Below, piece by piece: positions 17,226 through 19,744 of a DNA stretch of 64,000 bases. The position numbers were made by a program, and so were the translations under genes. Source of the stretch: Candidatus Hydrothermarchaeum profundi (GTDB lineage Archaea > Hydrothermarchaeota > Hydrothermarchaeia > Hydrothermarchaeales > Hydrothermarchaeaceae); contig MTMF02000009.1 in the NCBI GenBank assembly GCA_002011125.2, positions 299,906-363,905 of the forward strand, in the 5' to 3' direction. Positions within the stretch are counted from its first letter, which is position 1. Each line of letters begins with the position of its first letter. Under the pieces are notes generated by a model that was not told where the DNA came from, did no database searches, and saw only the letters and a list, made by a program, of their open reading frames with translations.

Positions 17226-17279
17226 AGAGTTTTTAATTAAAGTAAAGTATATATAATTCGCATGGCCTTTTTTTTAATT

Positions 17280-18023
17280 ATGAGTAAAAAGCTTATTATT
17301 TCTGGGGACCGGGTTCATGATGTTGGCTATAGGTACTTTTTAATGGAAGCTGCCTTAAATTTAGGCATTGAAAGATTTAGGGCTGAAAACAGGGTTAACA
17401 AGAAGCAGCAGGTAATTGCCTTCGTTGAAGGTGAAGAAGAGCAGCTTAATGAGTATTTTGAATTTGTTAAATATAATTTTCCTGAAGGCGCAGAGGTCGA
17501 TGATGTTAGGTGGGAGGAATATTCTGGATATATTCCTCGGATCGAGTATTTTGCACTCTTTTTTAATGTCATGCAAACTAGGAAATTTATTGATATTGGT
17601 AGAAGCATCGATGGAAAAATGAGTGCCTCTTTAGGGAAACAGGACAAGATGCTAGAGAAACAAGACATGATGCTGGAAAAACAAGATAAGATGCTAGAGA
17701 AGCAGGACACTATGATAGAGAAACAAGACATGATGCTAGAGAAACAAGATAAGATGCTAGAGAAACAAGACATGATGCTAGAGAAACAAGATAAGATGCT
17801 AGAGAAGCAGGACACTATGATAGAGAAACAAGACATGATGCTAGAGAAACAAGACATGATGGTGGAAAAACAAGACGAAACAATTCGCGTTATAAAAGAG
17901 GAGGGGAGAAAGACGCGGGAAGCTTTTAAAAGCCATTTTGACAGGGATATAGCGAAAATTTATGAAGAAATTAATGAGATAAAGACAACGCTTGCTAAGG
18001 TTATTGAGAAAGTTGGAGCGTAA
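17280..18023 (+). CDS. Acylphosphatase-like domain fused to a heptad-repeat stalk
   Basis: The N-terminal 90 residues resemble acylphosphatase: GDRVHDVGYRYFL holds the substrate-binding arginine, and VIAFVEGEEEQLNEYFEFV and FPEGAEVDDV follow the family pattern. Acylphosphatases cleave carboxyl-phosphates, but here the catalytic role is uncertain. Residues 120-203 are twelve consecutive heptads of the form KQDxMLE, then a charged helical tail. Met and Leu fall in fixed heptad positions, so a long coiled coil is expected. TATA at 17248-17256 lies 24-32 nt before ATG 17280, which favours this start over ATG 17262. I know no characterised protein with this architecture. Confidence 0.8.
   Translation: MSKKLIISGDRVHDVGYRYFLMEAALNLGIERFRAENRVNKKQQVIAFVEGEEEQLNEYFEFVKYNFPEGAEVDDVRWEEYSGYIPRIEYFALFFNVMQTRKFIDIGRSIDGKMSASLGKQDKMLEKQDMMLEKQDKMLEKQDTMIEKQDMMLEKQDKMLEKQDMMLEKQDKMLEKQDTMIEKQDMMLEKQDMMVEKQDETIRVIKEEGRKTREAFKSHFDRDIAKIYEEINEIKTTLAKVIEKVGA
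17637..17888 (+). repeat. Twelve in-frame 21-bp tandem repeats with a 105-bp higher-order unit
   Basis: The 21-bp unit encodes KQDxMxE. The variable residues over the units read K, M, K, T, M, K, M, K, T, M, M(V), then a diverged last copy. Units 1-5 (17637-17741) and 6-10 (17742-17846) are nearly identical blocks of 105 bp, showing a recent five-unit duplication. Confidence 0.95.
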
Positions 18024-18122: not shown

Positions 18123-18776
18123 CTATCTCTCTATTCCTTCCCTGGTATAGCTCGCTTTTACTTTAGTTCTTATACCTCCTCTCACTTTGAAATCCATTTC
18201 TATATGCATCTCTAAGGGATCACTAACCTCAACAAGGTCCTCAAGGATTTTGTTAACCGCGTGCTCATATGCTATGCCAACATTTCTATAGGAAAGTAAG
18301 TAGTATTTAAGGGACTTAAGCTCTATGCATTTCTTGTTCGGGATATAGCGGATTACTAGGTTAGCAAAGTCGGGAAGCCCGGACCATGGACATAGGCTGG
18401 TGAACTCTTCAGTATCTATGAGTACTTCTATTTTTTTCCCTGGATACTGGTAGTCGAATGTCTCCAAGAAATTTTTATTAACTGCTTCAGGCGCCTGTAT
18501 CTCATATGTTAACTTAAACTTCTTTGAAGCCTCTACTATTGAGAACCCTAGTTTCTTTAGCAGCTGCCTCGCCTCTCTGCTGGTGAAATCTTGAGGCTTT
18601 AGTTCTCTGCCGTTTGCATACTTATTCGCCAGCTGTATGATATACCTTGGAGGAAACTGCTCTCCGTCAACCTCTAGATGAAACTTTTTTGAGTAGCTAC
18701 TTTGGGGTATTCCCTTCTTCTTTACCTCTTCTATCGCCTTTAGGATATGTTCTCTCGCTATGTTTTTCGGAATCAT
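18123..18776 (-). CDS. QueF-family nitrile reductase/amidinotransferase with McrA-like N-terminal domain
   Basis: The 217-residue protein joins two domains. Residues 8-82 match the ScoMcrA-type N-terminal head found in modification-dependent restriction enzymes (FHLEVDGEQFPPRYIIQLA, then DFTSREARQLLKKLGFSIV). Residues 100-217 are a QueF T-fold with the catalytic Cys129 in FTSLCPWSGLPDF, Asp136, and ELKSLKYY (152-159), then EHAVNKIL and FKVRGGI. QueF reduces preQ0 to preQ1; archaeal QueF-like proteins make archaeosine from preQ0-tRNA. ELKSLKYY fits the bacterial NADPH-binding consensus, so a reductase role remains open. ATG 18776 is chosen; an in-frame TTG at 18809 is the alternative. Confidence 0.8.
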   Translation of the reverse strand: MIPKNIAREHILKAIEEVKKKGIPQSSYSKKFHLEVDGEQFPPRYIIQLANKYANGRELKPQDFTSREARQLLKKLGFSIVEASKKFKLTYEIQAPEAVNKNFLETFDYQYPGKKIEVLIDTEEFTSLCPWSGLPDFANLVIRYIPNKKCIELKSLKYYLLSYRNVGIAYEHAVNKILEDLVEVSDPLEMHIEMDFKVRGGIRTKVKASYTREGIER

Positions 18777-18855
18777 GACAAATTCCCGCTCTTTATTAGA
18801 GTATTTCAAGTTTTCCTTGCTAATAAGCTTACTTTAGTTAATGGTATAACACCTT

Positions 18856-19320
18856 ATGAGAACGTTAACAAGGTTTGAGGAGAGTAGTGAAAGAATGTTG
18901 AAATATTTTTCTTTAGATTCTAAGATAAAGGGATCAATAAAACAAAAAATGAGAAAAATACTTGAAAACATACCAGAAATTCAATTTGCATATATTCATG
19001 GCTCATTTCTGAGCGATAAATTTAGAGATATCGATGTAGCTGTTTATTTTGAGGCTGCATACGACAAAAAAAAGCTTTTAAAAAAAGAACTTGAGCTTGA
19101 GGAACTTCTGAGTAGAGAACTAGGTTACCCTGCAGATGTCAGAGCGCTTAATAGCTCCCCCCTCTCCTTTAGATTTAATGTGATAAAGTTTGGGGAGGTG
19201 GTTTTCAGTAAAAATGAGGATCTGAGAAGCGACTTTGAAGCTATGATTATTTCACGATATCATGACTTTGCCTACTTCAGGAGGCTTTACATGAAGGAGG
19301 CTCTTGGTATTGAAATATAA
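18856..19320 (+). CDS. MntA-like nucleotidyltransferase (antitoxin of a HEPN pair)
   Basis: The 154-residue minimal nucleotidyltransferase shows the active-site pattern YIHGSFLSDKFRDIDVAVYF (GSx with DxD) near residues 48-67. In MntA/HepT systems MntA AMPylates the HEPN toxin at a tyrosine and neutralises it. Its last bases overlap the HEPN gene that follows, as in known modules. ATG 18856 has no clear Shine-Dalgarno site. Confidence 0.88.
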   Translation: MRTLTRFEESSERMLKYFSLDSKIKGSIKQKMRKILENIPEIQFAYIHGSFLSDKFRDIDVAVYFEAAYDKKKLLKKELELEELLSRELGYPADVRALNSSPLSFRFNVIKFGEVVFSKNEDLRSDFEAMIISRYHDFAYFRRLYMKEALGIEI

Positions 19321-19744
19321 TCCTGATAAAATTAGAAGAGTCTCTTCGGAGTTATTGAATGCCCTTGATAAGCTCAAAGAGCTGGCAAACCTGCCGAAGG
19401 AAGATTTTTTAAGAGACACCCACAAGGTTGCAAGTGCTAAGTATCATCTTCTTGTTGCTATTGAAGCATCTATAGACATGTGCAACCATTTAATTTCCCA
19501 AAACAGGCTGAGAACACCTGAGGATTACGCCGATACCTTTAGGGTTATGTATGAATATGGCATGTTCTCCGAGGAATTCCTATCTAATCTACTCGCAATG
19601 GTGAGATTCAGAAACCGCCTAGTTCACATCTACTGGGAAATCGATAACAGCCTTGTATATCAAATCCTTAAGGAGGATATCTCTGACCTAGAAGCTTTTA
19701 TGAAATATTTCACCGACTTCCTTAATAGAAGTCAGGAAAGGTGA
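19310..19744 (+). CDS. HepT-like HEPN toxin (RNase)
   Basis: The 144-residue all-helical HEPN protein carries the catalytic Rx4-6H-x-Y motif as RNRLVHIYW near residues 104-112, which places a tyrosine for AMPylation. HEPN toxins cut RNA when released from MntA. TTG 19310 is chosen because AAGGAGG (19294-19300) lies 9 nt before it; TTG 19304 would leave only 3 nt. The start overlaps mntA by 11 nt, so the pair is translationally coupled. Both genes look intact. Confidence 0.88.
   Translation: MKYNPDKIRRVSSELLNALDKLKELANLPKEDFLRDTHKVASAKYHLLVAIEASIDMCNHLISQNRLRTPEDYADTFRVMYEYGMFSEEFLSNLLAMVRFRNRLVHIYWEIDNSLVYQILKEDISDLEAFMKYFTDFLNRSQER

Follow-up and report, generated by a model that had tools for sequence, protein, structure and literature searches.

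A preQ0 nitrile reductase (QueF) fused to a ScoMcrA-type N-terminal domain in Candidatus Hydrothermarchaeum profundi

The window, a 64,000-nucleotide stretch of the Candidatus Hydrothermarchaeum profundi genome, encodes a protein in which a small N-terminal domain of the type found in the restriction enzyme ScoMcrA (hereafter the head) is joined to a complete type II preQ0 nitrile reductase, QueF-II (Table 1). The assigned ATG lines up with the MIPxNI start of other heads, and the QueF-II domain begins where its headless relatives begin. The fused gene is surrounded by nucleotidyltransferase/HepT, AAA-DUF4143, acylphosphatase-like and CBS genes, and no restriction or Dpd gene adjoins it.

Table 1. 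Coordinates, in the window, of the fused gene, its parts and two neighboring features
Feature	Position	Strand	Remarks
Fused ORF, 217 amino acids	18123..18776	-	ATG at 18776; TAG stop at 18123-18125
ScoMcrA-type head domain, residues 1-82	18531..18776	-	Profile, PADLOC, AlphaFold model
Complete QueF-II (preQ0 nitrile reductase) domain, residues 84-217 and stop	18123..18527	-	
Codon of catalytic Cys129	18390..18392	-	Equivalent to B. subtilis Cys55
Codon of catalytic Asp136	18369..18371	-	Equivalent to B. subtilis Asp62
NADPH-type motif ELKSLKYY, residues 152-159	18300..18323	-	
Possible longer start, +11 amino acids	18777..18809	-	In-frame upstream TTG at 18809
Acylphosphatase-like protein	17262..18023	+	About eleven tandem QDxMxEK heptad repeats
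Nucleotidyltransferase and HepT-like pair	18856..19744	+	MNT-HEPN toxin-antitoxin kind; divergent from the fused gene

The C-terminal part of the fusion matches the QueF-II equivalog model TIGR03139 with 141.6 bits (cut-off 86.9; 8.8e-42) and PF14489 at 1.3e-29, also above cut-off. QueF-II was recognized here by the catalytic Cys and Asp, the substrate Glu and the motif E-x-K-[SA]-x-K, the mark of NADPH-type QueF, and all are retained in the fusion (Cys129, Asp136, Glu171 and ELKSLKYY). The initial annotation had called this domain a QueF with its Cys and Asp in place and with an NADPH-type motif, and was right on each point. Of the active-site residues of the B. subtilis enzyme, Cys55, Asp62, His96 and Glu97, one is changed in the fusion, where Tyr170 stands at the position of His96. 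This His-to-Tyr replacement was considered as evidence for altered chemistry and discounted, since the column is variable among the 88 QueF-II rows gathered (57 H, 13 M, 10 Y, 7 Q and 1 N), and Tyr170 is therefore uninformative on loss of function.

The AlphaFold model of the QueF part has pLDDT above 90 over most of the domain and superposes on the unimodular type II QueF of B. subtilis (4f8b, 4fgc, 5udg) at 1.0 A over 117 columns, with 39-40% identity. The two proteins have in common the whole catalytic domain, its Cys, Asp and Glu, the NADPH motif and the fold, and the fusion differs in its 82-residue N-terminal head and the Tyr noted above. The QueF-Like archaeosine synthase of Pyrobaculum (5jyx, 5k0p), a QueF core that lacks the NADPH motif, has the fold and the thioimide-forming Cys in common with the fusion, but its identity to the fusion domain is only 19-23%, far behind that of B. 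subtilis QueF, so that the reductases are the nearer structures.

No Pfam model recognized the head, and a single-sequence phmmer search of the PDB returned chance matches only, the best of them a designed protein; a profile was thus needed. A profile of eight heads searched against the PDB gave ScoMcrA (5zmm, residues 4-94) as the best match (E 4.4e-6; next entry E 0.04), and the PADLOC type IV restriction model mREase_IV matched the head weakly but in register, at positions 1-97 of 560. In a first structure model, in which the one added head row was misaligned, the head had a pLDDT of about 52. Folded alone with one relative it gave five models spanning pLDDT 41 to 87, and the best of these (86.7) matched 5zmm residues 4-97 with Z 10.1 (2.2 A over 70 residues), against Z 2.4 for the entry ranked after it. 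A head profile built without the fusion recovered it at 1.2e-33, whereas 1000 shuffled copies searched with the same profile gave no match at E <= 10. The earlier description of the N-terminal domain as McrA-like is thus borne out by both profile and fold, and the fusion of a complete QueF to a ScoMcrA head is confirmed.

ScoMcrA (Sco4631; 5zmm) is a type IV restriction enzyme whose head has been described as small and flexible and whose modification reading is done by its SBD and SRA domains (PMC6224610; PMC7461809). The head alone is therefore no sign of modified DNA. The fusion lacks the SBD, SRA and HNH domains of ScoMcrA and has a biosynthetic enzyme in their place; Pfam, TIGRFAM and PADLOC profiles found no modification-reader, nuclease or AAA domain in it, and it consequently falls outside the type IV restriction enzymes, which combine a modification reader with a nuclease or an AAA motor. 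The fusion head is basic (pI 9.7, charge +5.7), but the charge varies from -0.2 to +9.7 across the family, which makes basicity weak evidence for nucleic-acid binding.

Elsewhere, the head occurs at the N-terminus of McrB ATPases, of restriction-like proteins and of others without an assigned type. These include two McrB-like AAA proteins, one of 921 amino acids with an EVE match (genome G333) and one of 901 amino acids adjoining what reads as a Vsr-like ORF (locus L143), DUF7662 proteins of a Thermococcus plasmid and of a relative, a protein with a sub-threshold HSDR_N match, and several further ORFs with no Pfam partner; a more distant head precedes DUF3427 and NOV_C in a Vibrio phage protein. 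In the McrB-like and other archaeal proteins the head lies at the very N-terminus and has the pattern MIPxNIxRxH...PPKYVISLANKYANG, as in the fusion. The fusion head is 55-58% identical to other heads and keeps the conserved positions of the family. Their partner is an AAA ATPase, a restriction-like part or an unassigned part, and never QueF. A search with the head alone among 394 relatives gave six heads, of which only that of the fusion is followed by QueF.

Conversely, the survey of other QueF proteins yielded none with a head, showing that the head is no standard part of archaeal QueF or QueF-Like proteins. No other head-bearing QueF was found among the 23 genomes of the phylum, in two further archaeal phyla (115 and 36 genomes, searched with the whole protein), among 18 phage records with a QueF match, or among 67 viral QueF loci read at the N-terminus (out of 80 in all), and the single QueF in one genome-contig scan was headless. 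The eight-head alignment was too diverse for searching viral contigs; the fusion's own head gave no match there, and the G176 head gave one McrB-like protein. The joining of a head to QueF thus gives a known enzyme a new domain architecture, seen only once among the genomes and loci searched. The closest QueF proteins, those of G021 and G022 (66-68% identity), are headless and group with the fusion in a tree; the head was either gained in the fusion lineage or lost in these relatives, which one genome cannot tell apart.

A different N-terminal part is present on another QueF-family protein of G021 (contig C25, locus L009, 1231-2022). It has a weak match, below cut-off, to nucleoside 2-deoxyribosyltransferase (PF05014, 5e-5), and the QueF motif is altered to EYESLK. 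Its gene adjoins one for a QueC-like ATPase and another that reads as Pelota-like.

The fusion is the sole QueF in its genome. QueC, QueE and QueD lie in one run (QueC identified by profile, the other two from their translations as read), a bacterial-type TGT adjoins QueA, and QueH is present. For archaeosine there are an archaeal TGT and an ArcS that is split. To judge by gene content, the genome holds a full pathway for queuosine in tRNA together with one for archaeosine; there is precedent for bacterial queuosine pathway genes in archaea (PMC8204110). ArcS is encoded as two genes, one for a TGT-like part and one for a DUF5591-TGT_C2-PUA part (contig C9, locus L044, 3846-5821).

Across the phylum, QueA is found in 21 of the 23 genomes and QueF in six. 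Most QueA-bearing relatives have no QueF, and the enzyme is therefore not obligatory for the queuosine pathway in the phylum. A COG1738-type transporter (the family of E. coli YhhQ) is present in seven of the 23 genomes, none of which has QueF, an overlap of zero that would arise by chance in about 8% of cases; replacement of QueF and an uptake transporter by each other is suggestive only, and eight QueA-bearing genomes have neither. QueF adjoins QueA and TGT in G012 and G015, and in G021 the sister QueF is flanked by rpsB and truD, an order that reads as identical in G022. The fused gene does not adjoin the other queuosine genes of its genome.

The best explanation, to which we give a probability of about two in three, is that the fusion is a working NADPH-dependent QueF for queuosine in tRNA, with the head as an accessory module. 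The enzyme would reduce free preQ0 to preQ1 with NADPH, and preQ1 would be passed on for the formation of queuosine in tRNA by three enzymes whose genes lie elsewhere in the genome, the bacterial-type TGT, QueA and QueH. Because this QueF is the only one in a genome with a complete pathway for queuosine in tRNA, supply of preQ1 to tRNA is its likeliest use. The head would have been joined to the QueF N-terminus in the fusion lineage (or lost in relatives) as a non-catalytic module, whose most likely role would be that of a basic binding or tethering domain, directed to nucleic acid or to a partner protein. The observed basis of this explanation is the completeness of both domains, the retained motifs, the single QueF, the pathway genes and the headless sister genes. 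Counted against it are the Tyr at the active-site His position (in a variable column), the many QueA-bearing relatives without QueF, and the distance of the gene from the queuosine genes.

An unlikely alternative, though the least so, is an accidental fusion, in which rearrangement of a head-nuclease gene undergoing decay placed its 5' end in front of queF and left a harmless appendage. Head proteins do occur in the same phylum, and the one in G001 ends early, at 158 amino acids, compared with the longer G176 sequence; the head-QueF join was seen once only, and the flexibility of the head in ScoMcrA (PMC6224610) counts in favor as well. However, the head retains the conserved positions of its family and its 55-58% identity to other heads, its fold is predicted to be intact, a search of the head for foreign codon usage found none, its codon usage being normal, and the only internal start that would yield QueF alone, the TTG of residue 104, falls within the domain.

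Somewhat less probable again is a DNA route, in which the head would recruit QueF to DNA or a DNA-modifying complex, preQ1 (or preQ0 reduced in DNA) would end in DNA, and a DpdA-like enzyme encoded on contig C3 would exchange the base. The initial annotation had proposed a deazaguanine step directed to nucleic acid, possibly DNA; the homology of the fusion head to restriction-enzyme heads and the C3 gene row speak for this proposal, but the ScoMcrA head does not serve that enzyme as its modification reader (PMC6224610) and the tRNA pathway, with its available use for preQ1, explains the enzyme without DNA; the step from the head to DNA is the weak part of that interpretation. Viruses with QueF-type enzymes do carry dPreQ1 in their DNA, where reduction may act either on the free base or on the base once in DNA (PMC6884629).

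Contig C3 (25 kb) of the same genome contains, in a row (locus L043, 5000-12553), genes for a DpdA-like TGT paralogue, a DUF5591 protein, a 1408-amino-acid protein and the helicase HerA, a candidate DNA deazaguanine cluster. The TGT-family protein matches PADLOC DpdA at 5.6e-13, compared with 1.7e-4 for TGT, and has distant relatives in the Sulfolobus viruses STSV1/2 and SIRV8-10 and in haloarchaeal plasmids, and the 1408-amino-acid protein reads as containing a P-loop-like stretch, GEWGEGKT, with only a weak STAND match from Pfam. As support for a DNA use of the fusion, this row is weakened by the DUF5591 protein that it encodes, which fits chemistry of the archaeosine type, on preQ0 and not preQ1, and by its location on another contig, the other end of which reads as mobile-element-like; beside the fused gene itself there is no dpdA, nor any other gene of restriction or of the Dpd system. 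It is doubtful, a little more so than the route in general, that the head directs the nitrile reductase to DNA or a DNA-modification complex and that the archaeon, with the DpdA-like row, makes preQ1-type DNA; if it did, the ScoMcrA head would serve enzymes other than nucleases as a general adaptor to DNA that is modified or can be modified.

A role of the fusion as a QueF-Like archaeosine synthase with preQ0-tRNA as its substrate, which the archaeal host and the fold common to QueF and QueF-Like might suggest, is very improbable given the retained NADPH motif, the far better matches to the reductase equivalog and to B. subtilis QueF, and the presence of archaeal TGT and split ArcS in the genome.

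In the searches made, only the fusion has its ScoMcrA head attached to a biosynthetic enzyme; as a small protein, it lends itself to tests of what the head does. Side by side, the genome appears to hold tRNA queuosine and tRNA archaeosine pathways and a possible DNA deazaguanine route, and this one organism could thus show how preQ0 divides among queuosine, archaeosine and possible DNA routes.
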